Under the pieces are notes generated by a model. It was not told where the DNA came from. It ran no database searches and saw only the letters and a list, made by a program, of their open reading frames with translations. The translations under genes and the position numbers were made by a program. A stretch of 8,873 nt of DNA from positions 1-8,873 of the forward strand of contig CACZAK010000275.1 in the NCBI GenBank assembly GCA_902779075.1, read 5' to 3'. The DNA is from an uncultured bacterium (GTDB taxonomy: Bacteria > Verrucomicrobiota > Kiritimatiellia > RFP12 > UBA1067). Shown one piece after another: positions 1 to 8,873 of the stretch. Within the stretch, counting starts at the first letter, position 1. Each line of letters opens with the position of its first letter.

Positions 1-3000
1 TCTGCGTGATGTCGAGGTTGCCGGACGACGTGCCGGTGAAATACGTCGTCGCGCTGTTGGAGTGCGTGATCGCCGCGCCGTTCGCGTTGAACGCGCCCGA
101 ATAGGTGACGTTCTGGTTGCCCGTCATCGCGAGCGCGGCGCCGGAGGCGACGTTCACATCGCCCTTGACGGTGTTTGCCCCTCCCTGCGCGTAGAATGTG
201 CCGCCGTTCGACGTGACGCTGATCGGCATCGTGGTGCGGTATGTCGAAGAGTAGAACTGTAGCGATCCGCCATCGATGACGACGCCGCCCGGAACGTCGC
301 ATTGGATCGAATCCGTATAGTACGCGGGCAGAAGTTCCGCACCTGACTTGACGACGATGGATTCCACGTCGATCGGCTGTCCGTATGGGCAGAATATGTT
401 CGTCTTCACCGTGAGCGTCTTGCCGGGACCGTAGATGCCGGGCGTCGCCGTCGCCGAGGTTGGACCCGTATGGACACGCATGTCGATGCGGTCCGTTCCG
501 CCGATGGTCGCGTCGTCCGCGAGTTCCACGCGGCGCAGCAGCGCGTTGTAGTAGCCATGCGAGGTGCGACCGTCAAGAGAGTCGTTCACGATCGCGCCGC
601 GTCCGTCGGGGCCGTCGCCCGCGATGACGAACGTCTTATGCGTTGTGATTTCCGCGCGCGGGGAGTTGTTGCCGTTCAAGATGTCGGTGTAGTTGATGTT
701 GAACTGACCGCCGCCGCCGATCTCCACCTTGCCGCCAGTCGAACCGCTGTCCGTGCCGAGTGCGTTCTGAGAGGCGTTGGGGCCGAGTACGACCTTCTGT
801 CCGTTCGTGATGACGATCGTCTGGTCGCCGAAGCTCGCGCCGTCGAGCGTGACCGTGCCCGTGCCTCCGAGCGTGACCGTGTCGCCGCCCGCGAGCGTGC
901 CGTCGCCCTTGAACGTGTAGTCGTTCGCGCCCGTGAGGGTGATCGGCCCGGCGAACATTTCCCCGCTCACCGTGATGTCGCCGGACGCGGTCTCCGCGCC
1001 GTCGATGAACGCGGGCACGTAGGGGACGAATCCGCCCGTCGTGCCGCCGTCGTAGAGCCAGTTCGCGCTCGTCGTGTTCCAGCCGAGGTCGGCGGCGCTC
1101 GCGGGACGCCACGTCTGCGATGTCACGGAGGACGAAACCGCAATGGTCATCGTCAGCTTCCCGTCAACGACGGCGAACGTGGCGGACGCACCGGCGCCGA
1201 CGGTCGCCGTGGGCGCGAACTGCGAAAGCGACGTGATGCCGCTTCCCGCCTGCATGACCGTGTAGGTGCCGGGCACGAGGGCCGTCGCATCGACGTTGAC
1301 TGCGAGCGGAGAACCGGATGGAAGCGTCACCGCGCCCGTCGTCGCAATCATCGGCTCGGAGGCGGAGGGATTGACGACCGTGACGGACGCCCCTTCCACG
1401 AAATCGAGGTTCTTGCCGCCGCCCACGTTGCCGTCGACGACGTAGCCGCTCTTGTAGATGAACGTGTCGTCTGAACGCGCGGCGGTGGGGTTGCTGCCCA
1501 TCCATTTCGCGGCGAGGTACGCTTCGATGGCTTCGCGGTCGGAATCGGAAAGCGCGGTCTGGAACGCAATCAACTCGGAGAGTTCGCGTCCGGCATGGCG
1601 CTCATAACTACCTGTCGTAGTTCCGGCATTGCGGTCGCAAGTAAGGCGATCTGAAGAGCAGTTCGCCGCAGTGACGGTGGAATACACATGGCGGTCCGAC
1701 GGGACTTTCGTATTGAGATTATCCGCCACCAGCTCGCCGTCGCAGTAGATTTTACCGTTCTTCCAGAGCGCGCTGGAGCTGTTGTAGCAGTACTGTCCGC
1801 TTGCGCCACGATGGAAATGATAAGTGGAATTGTCGCCGAGGAAGAACGCGGGTTGTTCCTGGCGGATCGACATCGCCCAGAACACAGAGCGGATGGTCGT
1901 CATCCGCGTGTACTTGAGGTCGATCCCGCTGTTGCACGCACCCATGCAGTAGGCCGGGACACCGTTCGTGACCATGAGAGTTCCCCAGTCGGGTTCATGT
2001 ACTGGCACGGTGTACGCCGTCGCGTCGCGCTTGTAGGCGGACTTGTCCTTCCACGTCGTGACGAATCCGAAGGTATTGTCCTTGAACTCGAAGTTCGCGG
2101 CATCCGAGGCGTCAAGCCAGATGAGCGCGTTCGCCGCGATGTACGGCTCGATCCACGCGGTCGCGTCGTAGGCGGCGACGCCTGCCGTGACGACGGCGGC
2201 GCCGTCGAGCGAGGTTGCGGCGGCCGTGCCGAACAGCACGCCGTTGTGCGCGGGCCGTGCGGAAATCTTCGACGCGTCGATGGAACCGGCGTTCGTGAAG
2301 AGCGTCGCGGCGGTTCCGGCAGGGAGGTCGGTGACGCCGACCGTTATCGGCGCCGTCACGGAGGATCCGGCGGCGAGCGCAATCGGTGCGCCATTGGCGA
2401 TGGCGAGCGACGGGCCCGCAAACTCGATCGGATACGCGGGCGTGGCGGTGGGCAGCGACACCGTGCCGTCGCCCGTCAGGCGCACGGTCGGGAGGGACGC
2501 GCTTGTCGCGTCCGCAACAATCTCCGGAAGCGGCAGGACCGCCGCGTGGTTGGAAAGCCCCGTCGCCTTGTCCGCTACGAGTTCCAGCTGCGCGGCGGAT
2601 GTCGCCACGGTGAAGCCGTTCGTGTTGGCAAGCGCGATCTTCGCGGGCGAGACGAAGTTCATTGAACCCGTGTAGTAGTAAATGCCGCCGTATGCGCAGG
2701 GCCCGACTTCGACGAACGCATTCGCGCACGTGCCGCTCGCGTTGCCTTCCTCCGCCGTCGCCGCCTCCTGCACGAAGAGGCCGGTCTTCTGACTGGCGGT
2801 GTATGCCTTGAAACCACCCTTGAACTTGACGTGCGCGTTCTCGCAGCAGGCCGCCGTGAGCGTGTAGGCATTGACGACCGCGACCGGCGGCTCGATCTCA
2901 ACAGTGCCGTCGAACACGACGCGGCTGTCGCGGTAGGCGTAGAGGCCGCAGTAGGAGTCGCCCGCGCCGATTACGCGAGAACCGTCGTGGAAGAAGAACT

Positions 3001-4112
3001 TGCCGCCGTCGATGCGCTGACGGTAGGCCTGCGCGTCGAGCGTGCCGTAGAGGTGGAACACCGTTGTCGTCGCGCCTTGGAACGCCTCGTTGATGTTCAT
3101 GCGGAGCGTCGCGCCCGCGTTGACGGTGAGGTTGCCTTTGATGGTGTTCGCGGCGAAGGTGAAGAGTGACGTGCCGTCGGCGACGGTTACGGAACCATTC
3201 GCGTCAATCGTCGTCGTGCCGGCGACGTTAAGGTTTCCGCGCGTCGTGAGCGAACCGCCATCGCGGACAGTGATCGCTCCCTGCCACGTCGCGCCCTCGC
3301 CCGCGTCGATCGTGATGTCGTCCGCGATGGTGAGCGCCTTGCCCCACAGCGGATCGGAAGGCGTGATCGTCGGCGTGTTCGCAGTCGTGAACACGCCGGT
3401 CAGGGTGTTCGTGAGGAACGTGGAGCGGACGAGGTCGTAGAGGCCGAGTTCGCCGTCCGCGTCGCGCTTGGCGGGCACGAGGTCGAGGCGGAGGTTCCCG
3501 GACGAGTCACGCAGCTTGAAGGAATAGAGCGTGTAGGAGCCGTAGTTGCCGTTGCTTGTCGTGGGGAGGCCGTTGTGCGAGCAGAGGAGGCACAGCTCGG
3601 AGTTGGGCGTGTACTCGTCCGCGCCTCCCATCCTCGGTGTTCGCGGCGATGTTCGTGACGACGGCCGTGCGCGCGCCGTAGTCCGCGACGACGAGGTAGT
3701 TTGTGCAGGCGAGGAGCGTCGTCGTGCTCGTGACCTGCACCGTGTCGCGGTCGAAGCGCATCTTGCCGTTGGAGGTGTTCAGCACGAACGCGCTGAACTG
3801 GCGCTCGGTGCCGTTGGTGCGCGAACACCAGAGCTGCTGCGTCGCGTTCACGACGGACGGGCGGAACACCATCTCCGCCTTGTCCGCGCCGTTCGGCACG
3901 AGGCCGGTTCGCACCTGGCAGTTGCCGTTCGCCTTGAGGTACGGCACTTGCGTGTAGCCTGCGGGCAGGCCGTCGCCCAGTGCCGTCACCGCAAGAGCCA
4001 GAACTGCCGGGAGGGTCGCACTAGTCGCAACCTTGCGAACCAGAGCAACAACACGAGCGAAACTAGAAGTTTTCGCCCCCCCCCTACGGGAGTTGCAGAT
4101 AAGTTTTTCCAT
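1..4112 (-). CDS. Giant secreted LamG/beta-helix adhesin-like protein, frameshifted, 3' end beyond window
   Basis: The start is the ATG at 4110-4112, chosen because AAAGAGG lies 8 bases upstream. The frame from 4112 runs about 161 codons to the bases near 3630. The same protein then continues one base out of frame and stays open to base 1, giving about 1370 residues with the C-terminus missing. Residues 1-46 look like a signal peptide with an unusually long basic n-region and a hydrophobic core (LPAVLALAVTAL). Residues 47-230 form a LamG-like module starting GLPAGYTQVPYL and ending SGNLRLDLVPAKRDADGELG followed by LYDLV, a pattern known from many gut-bacterial surface proteins. Residues 231-650 are Gly/Thr/Val-rich beta-helix-like repeats. 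Residues 651-870 are a second LamG-like domain, from NALIWLDASD to ELSELIAFQTALSDSDREAI and AYLAAKW, with six cysteines that could pair. From about 1000 on, repeats of the autotransporter-associated type resume (WNTTSANWLYDG). The likely role is surface adhesion or glycan binding; the ligand is unknown. It may be a pseudogene if the frameshift is real. Confidence 0.82.
3626..3631 (-). other. One-base frameshift in the giant gene (one extra G in a GGG)
   Basis: Upstream of this point the reading frame gives TNIAANTEDG, downstream the next frame gives GGADEYTPNSELCLLC. Removing one G of the GGG at 3627-3629 joins them into a continuous LamG-like domain. Without correction the upstream frame drifts into Arg/His-rich sequence and stops near 3507. 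An ATG at 3629-3631 lies in the downstream frame directly after GAGG, so a separate start there cannot be excluded, but it would begin in the middle of a domain and without a signal peptide. The cause may be a true mutation or a sequencing or assembly error. Confidence 0.82.
4076..4084 (-). repeat. Poly-G run of nine in the start region of the giant gene (contingency-type tract)
   Basis: The plus strand shows nine C, read as nine G in codons 10-13 of the gene starting at 4112. The present length keeps the hydrophobic signal-peptide core and the first LamG-like module in frame. If one G were lost, translation would end at the TGA at 3986-3988. If one were gained, it would end at the TAG at 4063-4065, only a few codons on. 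Runs like this in surface-protein genes of other bacteria change length by slipped-strand mispairing and switch expression on and off. Whether this one varies is inferred. It is also a place where sequencing errors are common. Confidence 0.7.
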
Positions 4113-4120
4113 CGTTTTTT

Positions 4121-4127
4121 CCTCTTT
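4121..4127 (-). promoter_or_regulatory. Ribosome binding site of the giant gene
   Basis: The minus strand reads AAAGAGG, then eight bases (AAAAAACG... region), then ATG at 4112. This decides the start against the in-frame TTG at 4199, which would add 29 residues ahead of the signal peptide and has no comparable site. Confidence 0.65.
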
Positions 4128-4169
4128 GTAACTGTTGAAGATTCCTTCTTGGCAAGTTGAATTGGCATA

Positions 4170-4199
4170 ATGATACCATAATTTCACCACCAAGCGCAA
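4170..4199 (-). promoter_or_regulatory. Possible promoter of the giant gene
   Basis: The minus strand has TTGCGC at 4199-4194 and TATCAT at 4175-4170, 18 bases apart, in an AT-rich stretch within an otherwise GC-rich region. The -35 half matches the general sigma-70 consensus only in TTG, so this is a weak call. A transcript starting a few bases downstream would have a leader of roughly 50 bases before the ATG at 4112. Confidence 0.3.
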
Positions 4200-4216
4200 G
4201 GCGAAATTACGGTCAG

Positions 4217-4304
4217 GGGACGTGAGACGAGGGACGTGAGACGAACAGCTCGTCTCGCGTCTATCGTCTCACGTCTCGGCTCGTCTCACGTCTATCGTCT
4301 CACG
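4217..4304. repeat. Cluster of direct and inverted 12-base repeats between the lyase and the giant gene
   Basis: Two tandem perfect copies of GGGACGTGAGACGA lie at 4217-4230 and 4231-4244. The reverse complement of their core, TCGTCTCACGTC, follows at 4264-4275 and 4281-4292, with a one-mismatch copy at 4250-4261 and a 10-base partial copy at 4295-4304. A 24-base block at 4250-4273 recurs at 4281-4304 with a single mismatch. The opposed copies can fold into several alternative hairpins in RNA. The cluster ends two bases before the lyase stop codon region, so it could act in transcription termination or mRNA protection; no U-run follows. It also resembles dispersed REP-type elements. Function is unknown. 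Confidence 0.75.
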
Positions 4305-4305
4305 C

Positions 4306-7300
4306 CTACTTATATTCAAGCTGAATAAAATCGTAGGATATTTCGCCACTGTTGATTTCAAGTGTAATCTTGTTTTGGCCGGTTTTGAGCAATGCCTTGT
4401 CAAACTCAATCGGGTTAAATATCAATTTGCCGTATGAGTGTGTCCTCATGACCATCGAGTCGTCGGCTGAATAGTCCAGCGTCTTGATCAGAGACCCGTT
4501 GACAGATACCTTAAGTCCGTAGCCGGACGTGTTACGCGAGCTGCAGGTTACAACCGTGAGCACGGGCTGGCCGTCAGGTATTTCGTCCATGTTCCAGACA
4601 ATGCTGAAAGGGAGAGGCGTGGTACGGTAGGTGTCCATCTTTATCTGGGCGTAGTTCCAATCGTACTTGGGCAGGCTTTCCCCGACCTTGAACTCAACGT
4701 CGTTGGGGAACCGTATGGGGTAATAATGAAGCAGTTCCCAGCCGAAGTTTTTCTCGGAATCGTAAAGCCAGGTTCTGTCGGCATCGCCCACGCGCCAGGC
4801 AAGCCTGCCATTTGAATATTCTCTGAACACCAGCGTGCCCACATCGGTGTTGCGGGATTTCTCCACAACAACGTTTTCCTTCGCGACTTCGCCTGGATAG
4901 CCCTCTTTCCATACGGTCACGGTGTAGGTGTCGGCATGGACCTTGTCTATGCTCCAACAGCCGTTCTCGTCCGCACGCGTCCAGTACTGATACGGGCTGT
5001 TGCTCTGATTCCACGTCACGTAGCGCTCGTCTTTCTTGCCTCTCGTCTCGCCCGGCACGTTCACGACAACATAGGCGCCCTTGGGTGACGAGCCGTCGAA
5101 CATTTCAACTTTGCCGCGTAGTGAGCCCCGTTCAAAATAGTGGGCGTCTTCCATCCAGGCATAGGGCCACCGCGCCTGCTCGCAGACAAGCTTGCTCTTG
5201 GCGTCTTCATATTTTGCCATAAGCGTGTCGCCCCTGTTGAAATAGACCAGGATCGGACCGTACACCTTATGGTACCTGCCCTCCGGAATGGGGCGCTCGG
5301 ACCAGGTGAAGTACTCTCCTTCAAACATCCCGTTGTCGTTCTTGAGAAGTTTGCATATCGAATCCTTCGACACCGTCAGAATCCACATGCCCAGCCGGTC
5401 GTTTGCACTGCCGCTTATGGATGAATCCAGCTGATAGGGGTTTCGTTCGTGCTTGGCGTTGAGCTCGCCGTTCTGATTGCGGTAAACCGACTGATAAATG
5501 TCTTTCCTGCCGTACTCCGTGTCGATCGGCCGGGCATCCTCGATTATTCTGCTGTTGAATTGAAGTTTATCGTGCTCGATCTGATATTCCCAGACGTCGG
5601 AACTCTTTCTGAACATAGGCGCACAGTACAAATGCGAACAGGAAGTCGTGCCCTCAGCCTTGTCGACTGTATAATACAAATAGAATCCGCTTTCACCCCT
5701 CGGAATCCTGTACACGACCTCCAAAGTATAGGGGAACCGCTCCGTGGGAGAATATGTATACGCATATTCGGCGTAATCGGCATTTGCAGTTTTCAAGCCA
5801 CGGGTTCTTTTTCCGTCGTGCTCGATTATGCGGCCGAACGCACCAGAATTCCATGTGATGAAGCCGTAGCCTTTCAAGAGGCTGTTTGTGCTGTCGCAGG
5901 TTGTAAGCTTCTTGACTCCGGCCCACGAATTCCTGTCGCCTGCGTCGAACATCAGGCAAATGTTGCCGTTGCTGATCGTCACGACCTTGTTCGACGGAAC
6001 TGCGTCGCCGTATTTGTATTCGACGCCGTCTATGATCGTCACGACATCCTGCGTACTGTCGTTGTAGGGCGTGAGAGCGGATGTTGGCGTCTTGTCCGGC
6101 GTGCCGCCCAGGTCCTTTATGGCAACGCACGCCCTTTCTGCAACATGCGGATTGCCGTGGCCGAGCAGCTTTTGCAGGGCGGGAACGGCTGCTTTCGCCT
6201 TTTCTTCCAACTGAGGGTTCCGGCCCTTTCTGCCCAGGGTGTCAACTGCCCGCAGGACGACTTCCGCATCCGGATTTGAAAGCGCGTTTACAAGAGCGTG
6301 GACAGACGCTTCGTCATCTGTCATTTCAAGTATGTCCTGCGCCTTGTTAAGCAGGTGACGCGTAACTTTCATCGCCTTTGTCTTAAAGGCAAGAGTCCAG
6401 GTGTCTTTTTCGGCAAGGTCCTCTCTGTCCAGCAGATACAATGCACGCAAGGCGTACAAGCGCACATCCTCGTCCTCTTCGGGATTGTTCGCCAGCATGG
6501 CCATATTGCCAGCAGAGAGCAGATTCAGCCGGCCATACACCAATTCCATGTAGGCCTTGTCCGTCTTGCCGATCTGGTATTCCCTTAAGTCAAATATGAT
6601 AAATTCGGACAGCGCCCGTATGGCGCGGATTCGCTCTTCTTTGTCCGTGCTGCTCAGCACGACATCCAGCATCGAGTTGAAGACTCGATACGGAGTGATG
6701 TTCTCAAGCATCATGGTCTCAAGCGCTTCTTCGCGGTAGTAATAGTAGTCCTGGAGCATGGCGTCTATAAAGGTTCGGCCAATGCTCTCCCCTGCCTTGT
6801 TCGAATGCAGGTTATACAAAGTTTTGTCTGTCCCTTTTATCTGTACGCCCAATGCGTAAAACATGATTTGCGCAGCCAGACCTCGTGTCGCCAGCTCGCC
6901 GGTGTGCACGTTCAGGCCTCTGGAGATGTATTTTTCGTTGCCGACCCTTATGTATCCCATGGGATAGCCGCCCTTTGCCACTGCCTCGTCGCCATAGCCG
7001 AGCGCTTCCACGACCATCTTGACGGCGTCTTCTTCCTTGAGGGGGGCTTCAGACCCAAATCGTCCGTCGCCAGGACCACGCTTGAACGCCCTTGAAACGA
7101 CTGCCGCAAATTCCGCTCTTGTAATTGTATTGTCTGGCCTGAACGTGCCATCCGCATAGCCGTTCATGAGGCCAAGATGGCTTAAGGTCAAGGCGGCGAT
7201 TTCCGCAGGGTGTCCGTTGAAATGTCGAGAACCCTTTCTGTCGGGCTTCCCCACCATGTCGGAGAATCGATGGTCCAGAACTTTTGCCGTGGGCTCCCGG

Positions 7301-7458
7301 GCAAGGAGCCCTTCTCCCTTCGAAGTTTGCGCAGAGCGAGAAGCCGGCTTGGGGAACCTCCGAACCTTTTCAAAATCTGCACCGCTGACAACGGTTGCCA
7401 TTCCAATCATCATGGCAAGCGTGCACATGACAGATGCAAGAGTGCAGGGTCGCCTCAT
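4306..7458 (-). CDS. Secreted SLH-HEAT-rhamnogalacturonan lyase (polysaccharide lyase family 4)
   Basis: This enzyme probably cleaves the rhamnogalacturonan I backbone of pectin by beta-elimination at the rhamnose-galacturonic acid bond, outside the cytoplasm. The ATG at 7458 (1050 residues, stop TAG) is preferred over a TTG seven codons upstream because AGGAAGGGGG precedes it. Residues 1-27 are a signal peptide ending VVSGA. Residues 65-125 are an S-layer-homology module (NGYADGTFRPDNTITRAEF), and 139-203 look like a second, diverged one (ELATRGLAAQIMFYAL). Residues 223-452 are helical with HEAT-like units (ASVHALVNALSNPDAEVV, AVPALQKLLG). Residues 472-778 match the PL4 catalytic domain (VVTISNGNICLMFD, GPILVYFNRG, WPYAW). 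Residues 778-881 are the fibronectin III-like domain (RGKVEMFDG, TYTVTVWKEGYPGEV), and 882-1050 the C-terminal carbohydrate-binding-like domain (LAWRVGDADRTWLYD, YPIRFPNDVEFKVG, ending DFIQLEYK). Fungal PL4 uses a Lys and a His; Lys652 (YGRKDIYQ) and His730 (RYHKVYGP) are candidates by position only. G+C is clearly lower than in both neighbours. Confidence 0.88.
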   Translation of the reverse strand: MRRPCTLASVMCTLAMMIGMATVVSGADFEKVRRFPKPASRSAQTSKGEGLLAREPTAKVLDHRFSDMVGKPDRKGSRHFNGHPAEIAALTLSHLGLMNGYADGTFRPDNTITRAEFAAVVSRAFKRGPGDGRFGSEAPLKEEDAVKMVVEALGYGDEAVAKGGYPMGYIRVGNEKYISRGLNVHTGELATRGLAAQIMFYALGVQIKGTDKTLYNLHSNKAGESIGRTFIDAMLQDYYYYREEALETMMLENITPYRVFNSMLDVVLSSTDKEERIRAIRALSEFIIFDLREYQIGKTDKAYMELVYGRLNLLSAGNMAMLANNPEEDEDVRLYALRALYLLDREDLAEKDTWTLAFKTKAMKVTRHLLNKAQDILEMTDDEASVHALVNALSNPDAEVVLRAVDTLGRKGRNPQLEEKAKAAVPALQKLLGHGNPHVAERACVAIKDLGGTPDKTPTSALTPYNDSTQDVVTIIDGVEYKYGDAVPSNKVVTISNGNICLMFDAGDRNSWAGVKKLTTCDSTNSLLKGYGFITWNSGAFGRIIEHDGKRTRGLKTANADYAEYAYTYSPTERFPYTLEVVYRIPRGESGFYLYYTVDKAEGTTSCSHLYCAPMFRKSSDVWEYQIEHDKLQFNSRIIEDARPIDTEYGRKDIYQSVYRNQNGELNAKHERNPYQLDSSISGSANDRLGMWILTVSKDSICKLLKNDNGMFEGEYFTWSERPIPEGRYHKVYGPILVYFNRGDTLMAKYEDAKSKLVCEQARWPYAWMEDAHYFERGSLRGKVEMFDGSSPKGAYVVVNVPGETRGKKDERYVTWNQSNSPYQYWTRADENGCWSIDKVHADTYTVTVWKEGYPGEVAKENVVVEKSRNTDVGTLVFREYSNGRLAWRVGDADRTWLYDSEKNFGWELLHYYPIRFPNDVEFKVGESLPKYDWNYAQIKMDTYRTTPLPFSIVWNMDEIPDGQPVLTVVTCSSRNTSGYGLKVSVNGSLIKTLDYSADDSMVMRTHSYGKLIFNPIEFDKALLKTGQNKITLEINSGEISYDFIQLEYK

Positions 7459-7551: not shown

Positions 7552-8873
7552 CTACCGCACGATGAGGGTCATGCCGGTCGGCTTCTTGACGTCGAGCATG
7601 AACGCGCCGTCACACGCCTTCAGCCTGGCACGCCACCCGGCACTCGGGAGCGTCAACTCCGTCGCGTCGAGCGTGAGCGCCTCCACGGACGCGCCTTCGG
7701 CAAGCGTGCCGAGCGTAATCAAGACCTTGCCGGTCGCAGTGGAAAGGTCGCCCACCACCTTCAGGTTCGCCGTGCCGGTGGAAGGCGTGGCAATCGTGCC
7801 CACGACGGATGTCCCCGCCGCCGTGCGCGCCTCCGCGCCGTCGATCAGCAGCGTGGCGTTCGCGGCGAGCGTCACCGCATTCGTGACCGATACCCCTTCC
7901 ATGAGCTCAAGCGTGCCGTCCGCGCCCACCGACGCCGCCCCCGTGCCGAGGGCGTGGTCGTGCGCGGCCAGCAGCGTGCCGCCGTTCACGGTCGTGCCGC
8001 CGGTAAACGTGTTGTAGCCGGAAACGACGAGTGTGCCCGCGTTCTTCTTGATGATCGCGCCGCCCACGTCGTAGCGGCCGGGCGAATAGGTGCCGACAGA
8101 TTTTCCGTCCTCCACGTCTGCCGAGATGCAGACGGTTCGGGCAGCTCCCGCGGCAGAATCGTAGGTGTCGAACGTGACAGGGGCGTGGAAATGCACCTTG
8201 CTGCCTGTGCCTTCATAGCGAATCGCGTAGTCGGCCAGCGCACCGAGCGTGATTTGCGGCCCGATGCCGATACCCGTGACGTCCGTCGCCTTCACGACGA
8301 TGCCTTCCGAACCCAGATTGAGCTTCCGCTGTTCGATCCACTTGGGAGACGTCGTCGTCGAGTCGGCGACAATCCCCTTGAGGTTGAAAGTGCCTGTCGC
8401 CTGCAGGTTGTTGTTCCCCTGCTGCTTGAAGATGCCGATGCGGCCACAGTTGTTCATGTTGTAGCTTTCGGACACATTCAACGCCCCGGTCCCGTTCACG
8501 TACACGACAACGCCGTCACCGACGCCGTTGTAGTAAGTGGTCGATCCGTTTTGCTCAACCTTACGGCAGTTGATCGTGCCGCCGTCATCGACCTGGAGAA
8601 GCGCGCGCTGGTTGTAGCTCGCGCTGCGGTGGGGCAGAATCAGCGTCGGACAGGTCACCGTGGCGCCGTTGCGCACATAGCATGCGTTGCCCGTCGTGGA
8701 CGGCACGGTCCAGTCTTCGGTGAACGTGATGTTGCCCATGAACTCGGAAGTGGGAGCGGCGGCCGTGTTCGCGTCATCCCACGTCGTGGCCGTGGCGCCG
8801 CCCGTGAAGTTGACGGCCTTGTTCGTGAAGGAGACGGTGTACTTGCCGGTGAACTGCACCTTGCACCCGACCA
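7552..8873 (-). CDS. C-terminal part of a secreted autotransporter-repeat (beta-helix) protein, 5' end beyond window
   Basis: The frame is open from the right edge to a TAG at 7552-7554, about 440 residues. It reads through a GTG at 8859 without a ribosome binding site, so the true start is outside the window. The sequence is rich in Gly, Thr, Val, Ala and Asn with short alternating beta-strand patterns. The stretch GAIIKKNAGTLVVSGYNTF, continuing TGGTTVNGGTLLAAHDHALG, is a textbook autotransporter-associated beta-strand repeat, which in PVC bacteria occurs in very large exported proteins. There is no beta-barrel domain and no PEP-CTERM-type tail. The protein ends with a compact module (GWRARLKACDGAFMLDV, then KKPTGMTLIVR). 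A surface or extracellular structural or adhesin role is likely. The substrate is unknown. High G+C matches the giant gene at 1-4112, and the two may be paralogues in one surface-protein family. Confidence 0.8.
   Translation of the reverse strand, partial: VGCKVQFTGKYTVSFTNKAVNFTGGATATTWDDANTAAAPTSEFMGNITFTEDWTVPSTTGNACYVRNGATVTCPTLILPHRSASYNQRALLQVDDGGTINCRKVEQNGSTTYYNGVGDGVVVYVNGTGALNVSESYNMNNCGRIGIFKQQGNNNLQATGTFNLKGIVADSTTTSPKWIEQRKLNLGSEGIVVKATDVTGIGIGPQITLGALADYAIRYEGTGSKVHFHAPVTFDTYDSAAGAARTVCISADVEDGKSVGTYSPGRYDVGGAIIKKNAGTLVVSGYNTFTGGTTVNGGTLLAAHDHALGTGAASVGADGTLELMEGVSVTNAVTLAANATLLIDGAEARTAAGTSVVGTIATPSTGTANLKVVGDLSTATGKVLITLGTLAEGASVEALTLDATELTLPSAGWRARLKACDGAFMLDVKKPTGMTLIVR

Follow-up and report, generated by a model that had tools for sequence, protein, structure and literature searches.

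The window, that is, the whole 8,873-nucleotide stretch of DNA analysed here, carries the beginning of a very large surface protein gene, and the region upstream of this gene and its first codons belong to a leader cassette that recurs in related genomes. The features of the locus are as follows:

4194..4199, minus strand: putative -35 box TTGCGC, separated by 18 bases from the -10 box, a weak match to the consensus
4170..4175, minus strand: putative -10 box TATCAT with TGG ahead (extended -10 like), conserved in the alignment, its promoter function predicted
4119..4124, minus strand: GAGGAA, a putative Shine-Dalgarno sequence ahead of the ATG at 4112, with GAGG conserved in the alignment
4037..4206, minus strand: dispersed leader cassette of ~170 bp comprising promoter-like region, 5' UTR, ribosome site, and 25 leader codons, delimited by blastn boundaries common to many loci and by alignment
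4076..4084, minus strand: nine-G tract, the proposed slippage site, counted in the window; the 22 unbroken copies have either 9 or 10 G
3507..4112, minus strand: leader and the surface protein's N-terminal part (201 codons), in an ORF closed by a second frame break
2..3631, minus strand: giant protein continued in another frame and running off the window, the database protein P0001 aligning across both frames

The minus-strand tract (4084..4076) numbers exactly nine G and makes up codons 10–13 (AGG GGG GGG GCG) of the reading frame that starts with the ATG at 4112, which agrees with the original prediction. It is the sole homopolymer of at least 7 bases within the window. The mere presence of the run is only mildly unusual, because at least one such run appeared in 9 of 200 dinucleotide shuffles of the window (mean 0.07 runs). 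With its 9 G at codons 10–13, the ORF contains a homopolymer of at least 7 G/C, the cut-off for translational contingency loci that the available part of a Campylobacter study applies (PMC6321876). Frame bookkeeping in the window shows that a run of 8 G closes at TGA 3988..3986 after 41 codons and a run of 10 G at TAG 4065..4063 after 16 codons, so both stops foreseen for one G fewer and one G more were recovered. The neighbouring lengths are out of frame, yet the 9-G frame of the window itself closes after 201 codons at TGA 3509..3507. The earlier assertion that only the observed frame is open was therefore not confirmed, since the 9-G frame also ends and the giant ORF lies in a different frame.

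The start at 4112 reads into the giant ORF (2..3631) at none of the run lengths from 5 to 13 G. Alignment with P0001 places a second break inside the giant protein at ~3633-3688 on the minus strand, and no homopolymer of at least 6 bases was found around it. P0001 is an unbroken database protein of 2243 aa that is nearly identical to the window's product, matching it at 100% over residues 1-160 and at 98.7% over residues 147-1375, in overlapping pieces that lie in different frames. An intact version of nearly the same gene therefore exists. The original prediction overlooked both this second frame break near 3631 and the membership of the tract in a common leader cassette.

Comparison of the window with related loci by blastn revealed that the ~170-bp unit (window 4206..4037) precedes many otherwise different genes, here called passengers. 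When 34 of the 41 copies were aligned (L111, L112, L113, L114, L115, L116, and L118 omitted), the promoter-like boxes, the 5' UTR, the GAGG motif, and the leader were all conserved; exceptions at the -10 box are L099, in which it is replaced, and a few variants, and the sequence of L096 does not reach the box. No Pfam family matched the leader-bearing ORF at E 0.01, and Rfam gave no match over the window at gathering scores. The short repeat GGTAGGGCGCGATCACCGAGCGCGCC or a near-variant stands directly ahead of the cassettes L081, L082, L086-L088, L091, L102, L109, and L110, and in L099 a repeat of the GGTAGGGCGCGATCACCGAGCGCGCC type stands where the promoter part would be. Between the cassette of the window and the neighbouring gene, intergenic short repeats of the CGTGAGACGA type were recognised by eye at 4215-4310. 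This neighbouring gene (4306-7449, minus strand) carries SLH, HEAT, and polysaccharide-lyase-4-like domains.

Cassette matches numbered 20 in assembly G001, 14 in G002, and 10 in G003, with none in G004. Within the genus, the cassette was found in four of 16 genomes, the fourth being G009 with one match, and within the family in at least six of 114 genomes, up to seven candidates per genome being scored. The 45 match rows (44 plus the one from G009) yielded 40 loci, one row falling inside L113 and four matches of 38-57 bp being left out; together with the window, 41 copies were analysed, and weak single matches in G040 and G088 were left out. Relatives were found at 18 loci, 17 in RUG assemblies, a label that we take to denote rumen assemblies, and one in a contig labelled Lentisphaerae. 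A few more distant homologues are annotated as Kiritimatiellae, and the cassette-bearing genomes appear to be those of Kiritimatiellota-like, uncultured gut bacteria. In viral contigs, a 25-base piece of the cassette had no exact match, and the window protein had no relative.

An unbroken run was present in 22 of the 41 copies, with 9 G in 19 and 10 G in three. The 10-G copies, L080 (G001), L093 (G003), and L095 (G002), occur once per assembly and precede different passengers. All three stop at codon 16, and the frame behind the run is open over 991 codons in L080 and 997 in L093, in both to the contig end, and over 1568 in L095, to a stop. The nearest leader of each 10-G copy is that of a 9-G copy (distances 0.009, 0.091, and 0.073); since the passengers also differ, the three 10-G copies look like separate events. 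Length variation in an otherwise intact gene, a hallmark of contingency loci, is thus found between cassette copies of several assemblies and not between strains of one locus. Among the 9-G copies, L082, L085, and L088 are too short to judge (20, 30, and 20 codons), and further frame breaks occur in the window, L090, and L113, with an earlier stop in L090 as well. Doubtful terminal frame changes were suggested by homology in L111 and L118. L111 and L112 lack a start, the contig ending inside the cassette, and so does L113, in which the middle of the cassette is missing.

The other 19 copies lack an unbroken run. The original prediction had named homologues encoding the same residues without a G run as evidence against a switch, and such leaders do exist in part: the run is interrupted in four copies (L086, L097, L102, and L117), shortened and still in frame in L109, and absent in ten with a P/W-G-K-like leader (L092, L098, L100, L101, L104-L108, and L110). 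L115 and L116 carry another leader, L114 is run-free and closed at codon 5, and L118 has no start at the expected place. The four interrupted copies retain the R-R-G leader. The interruptions show that the tract is dispensable.

For the 22 tracts, 0.006 breaks would be expected compared with three observed, given a background of four breaks (three clear and one allowed) over 134,849 bases of sequence behind the cassettes, which include some sequence beyond the ORFs and omit L114, L115, L116, and L118; the breaks were counted by homology (window, L090, and L113), which undercounts where a homologue is missing. The passenger ORFs contained no homopolymer of at least 7 in 107,046 bases. Encoding R-G-G by AGG GGG GGG is rare, with a frequency of 8.5e-4 according to rough codon usage in 107 long open stretches, where GGG accounts for 11% of glycine codons and AGG for 7% of arginine codons. 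Out-of-frame leaders were not significantly enriched among copies with an unbroken run (3/22 vs 0/17 in other copies; Fisher p 0.24), a comparison that omits L118 and the run-free L114, which is itself closed at codon 5. In the 24 R-R-G copies, third-position diversity was 0, 0.23, and 0 at codons 10, 11, and 12, against a mean of 0.06 at the other leader codons, so the tract is not specially conserved. Selection on the tract is accordingly unsupported by the silent sites.

The passengers are diverse large secreted proteins of Kiritimatiellota-like genomes. P0019, a close relative of the L095 passenger (97% identity), carries a C10 peptidase domain but differs in having an unrelated N-terminus, and P0021, which shares 78% identity with that passenger, bears the cassette leader in frame. 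The L093 passenger looks mosaic, its N-terminal part matching P0016 and L103 (57-64%) and its residues 194-997 matching P0014 at 87%. The window passenger, too, is found with several other leaders, and the cassette leader occurs in 7 of its 39 database homologues. Three of the 39 (P0139, P0141, and P0153) begin exactly at the first in-frame start codon past the leader, two (P0140 and P0142) begin ~eight codons ahead of it, one has V as its first residue there, and the other 26 have different beginnings. The shortened N-termini are suggestive of what gene callers would give for off-state alleles, and may also have other causes; these homologues are not close alleles of the window gene, P0139 being 76% identical to P0001 overall.

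No Pfam family was matched by P0001 at E 0.01, and no type Va autotransporter barrel was detected at E 0.01 in P0001, P0011, P0012, P0018, or P0019, in some of which PATR or beta-helix repeats were the only families. Eighteen of the 24 proteins P0001-P0024 end in a short hydrophobic stretch followed by arginine (e.g., TGMTLIVR and AGITIIVR), and window positions 7552-8871 are listed alongside them; this C-terminus is perhaps a sorting or anchoring tag.

Long G tracts are not confined to the cassette in this lineage. Runs of at least 9 G numbered 59 in G001, 23 in G002, and 23 in G003, of which 21 are cassette runs; the non-cassette runs occupy 84 places in 81 distinct contexts, and few are clearly inside ORFs. 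In eight of the 81 contexts the run stands between TTGACA and TAAAAT, the spacers measuring 17-19 bases (L160, L176, L179, L199, L205, L209, L236, and L237). The pattern TTGACA-G(≥8)-TAAAAT gave 22 matches in eight of 345 genomes of the class, compared with one for the reversed control pattern, and TTGACA-G(≥7)-TAAAAT gave 19 matches in seven of 114 genomes of the family, with one for the control and spacers of 15 to 19; the matches are not independent, because they are partly homologous to one another. An ORF of at least 80 codons lies behind 17 of these 19 promoter tracts and is open to the end of the sequence at hand in 16 of the 17, the ORF lengths being given without a control and the signal-peptide look of the N-termini being judged by eye. 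The loci with G tracts of the TTGACA/TAAAAT kind also include L244-L262 and L270-L273, tract lengths ranging overall from 7 to 12, and in G072 the tract adjoins the -35 box rather than the -10 box.

A second leader family (MKLLKTSKI...) gave seven matches. In G003, the long-run copies L263 (C49) and L265 (C62) are closed at codon 13 with an open frame behind the run, and the short-run copies L267 and L269 are in frame. In G004, the short-run copy L266 is in frame, the long-run copy L264 is closed without a long frame following the run, and L268, which has no long run, is closed at codon 13. The G004 copies are thus partly degenerate, which speaks against a clean picture in that genome.

The layout of the cassette, the variation between 9 and 10 G with intact frames, and the G tracts found elsewhere in the lineage together make slipped-strand phase variation the best explanation of the run, which probably serves as the switching tract of the common leader cassette, although switching within a population is deduced here from assembled sequences. 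In the copies that include the start, the leader is in frame with 9 G and meets a stop at codon 16 with 10 G, the passenger frame behind the run being intact as far as the sequence reaches; both lengths occur in related assemblies. A G gained or lost at replication would turn the translation of each giant secreted protein off or on independently, and the population would display differing mixtures of surface proteins. The switch originally proposed thus gains support that the window alone could not give: tract length varies between copies (9 G in 19/22 and 10 G in 3/22), and the 10-G frames are intact behind the run over the available sequence.

It is also conceivable, but unlikely, that the duplicated G-rich leader is a neutral hotspot that merely mutates faster, the 10-G copies being ordinary loss-of-function alleles with no selected switching. 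Such an origin would fit tract codons that show no more conservation than the silent sites around them, the existence of interrupted and run-free leaders, the other frame breaks in the window, L090, and L113, and L114, a broken copy without a run. Against it stand the absence of any second frame break from the 10-G genes over the 991-1568 codons available, the lack of homopolymers of at least 7 bases in the passenger sequence, and the recurrence of G tracts both between promoter boxes and within the second leader family. Contigs end at the repeated cassette, so that tract lengths in the assemblies may be unreliable. The 10-G copies might be errors, made during sequencing or assembly, in a repeat that contains a homopolymer. 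We consider this improbable: several cassette copies do lie at contig ends and L113 lacks the middle of the cassette, but a 10-G copy occurs once in each of three separate assemblies, and G runs of at least 10 were assembled elsewhere in the same genomes, so the assembly does not force one length. Least credible is that the tract merely encodes the basic n-region of the signal peptide and that transcriptional or ribosomal slippage buffers the frame and keeps the output constant; the basic residues retained by run-free leader variants (R-G-K and W-G-K) agree with this, whereas a run of 10 G is predicted from the reading frame to lead to a stop at codon 16.

The proposed phase-variable cassette is distinct from known cases in that a single promoter-leader-tract unit is common to many different surface genes. 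In Mycoplasma, Vlp-type lipoproteins combine a conserved promoter and leader with divergent surface proteins and a homopolymer that controls expression; there, the homopolymer is a poly-A in the promoter, the proteins are lipoproteins, and the host is wall-less. In Campylobacter, the genes generally have tracts of their own, unlike the one tract-bearing cassette common to many passengers, and switching has been shown in that genus whereas it is proposed here. The systems are alike in having an in-frame G tract, 9 and 10 as the commonest lengths, and many loci per genome: the Campylobacter study, in the part available, reports poly-G/C tract lengths peaking at 9 (53%) and 10 (26%), with 77% of the tracts of the genus lying within ORFs (PMC6321876). 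The TTGACA-Gn-TAAAAT tracts of these genomes resemble instead the promoter of Neisseria meningitidis porA, where poly-G separates the -35 box from the -10 box and expression depends on the length of the tract (PMC3639595). The porA tract acts on transcription, whereas the tract of the window lies in the coding frame. No extended signal peptide region (ESPR) is known to carry a poly-G tract. The ESPR of autotransporters resembles the leader in that very large secreted proteins bear a long signal sequence (PMC2805444), but the leader-bearing ORF has no Pfam match. Identity with an ESPR or a known autotransporter was rejected for lack of a profile match, repeat families aside.

In the library consulted, no paper on phase variation in Kiritimatiellota was found, and among the papers listed for Lentisphaerae and Verrucomicrobia none reports such a system by its title, which is not proof of absence. 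The terms Verrucomicrob and Akkermansia are likewise absent from the main text of a 2025 review of phase variation (PMC11868660). If the phase-variation reading is true, multi-locus bet-hedging as in host-adapted pathogens would extend to Kiritimatiellota-like gut bacteria, a group known chiefly through metagenome assemblies, and the switch would have spread as a ready-made promoter-leader unit. Gene callers may shorten or miss the off-state surface proteins in such assemblies. A more tentative possibility is that the cassette is portable, recombination moving the promoter-leader-poly-G unit onto many unrelated surface genes. In that event, the bacteria would possess giant secreted proteins that switch independently of one another and can be combined in many ways, and poly-G promoter switches would add to this repertoire at other surface genes.

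Long G runs also occur in two types of dispersed repeats in these genomes, one of the GTCAGGCAGTGA-Gn-TATTTGC-like type with G10-13 and the other of the GCGCAGTTAGC-Gn-CACAATTTTT-like type with G9-15. The loci of both types are L155, L171, L192, L194, L206, L215, L222, L225, L226, and L239, and L159, L169, L178, L211-L214, L220, and L234. At L174 (G001:C30), G runs of 10 and 11 stand in a repetitive stretch that resembles a leucine-rich surface protein, and the 11-G run may break the frame.
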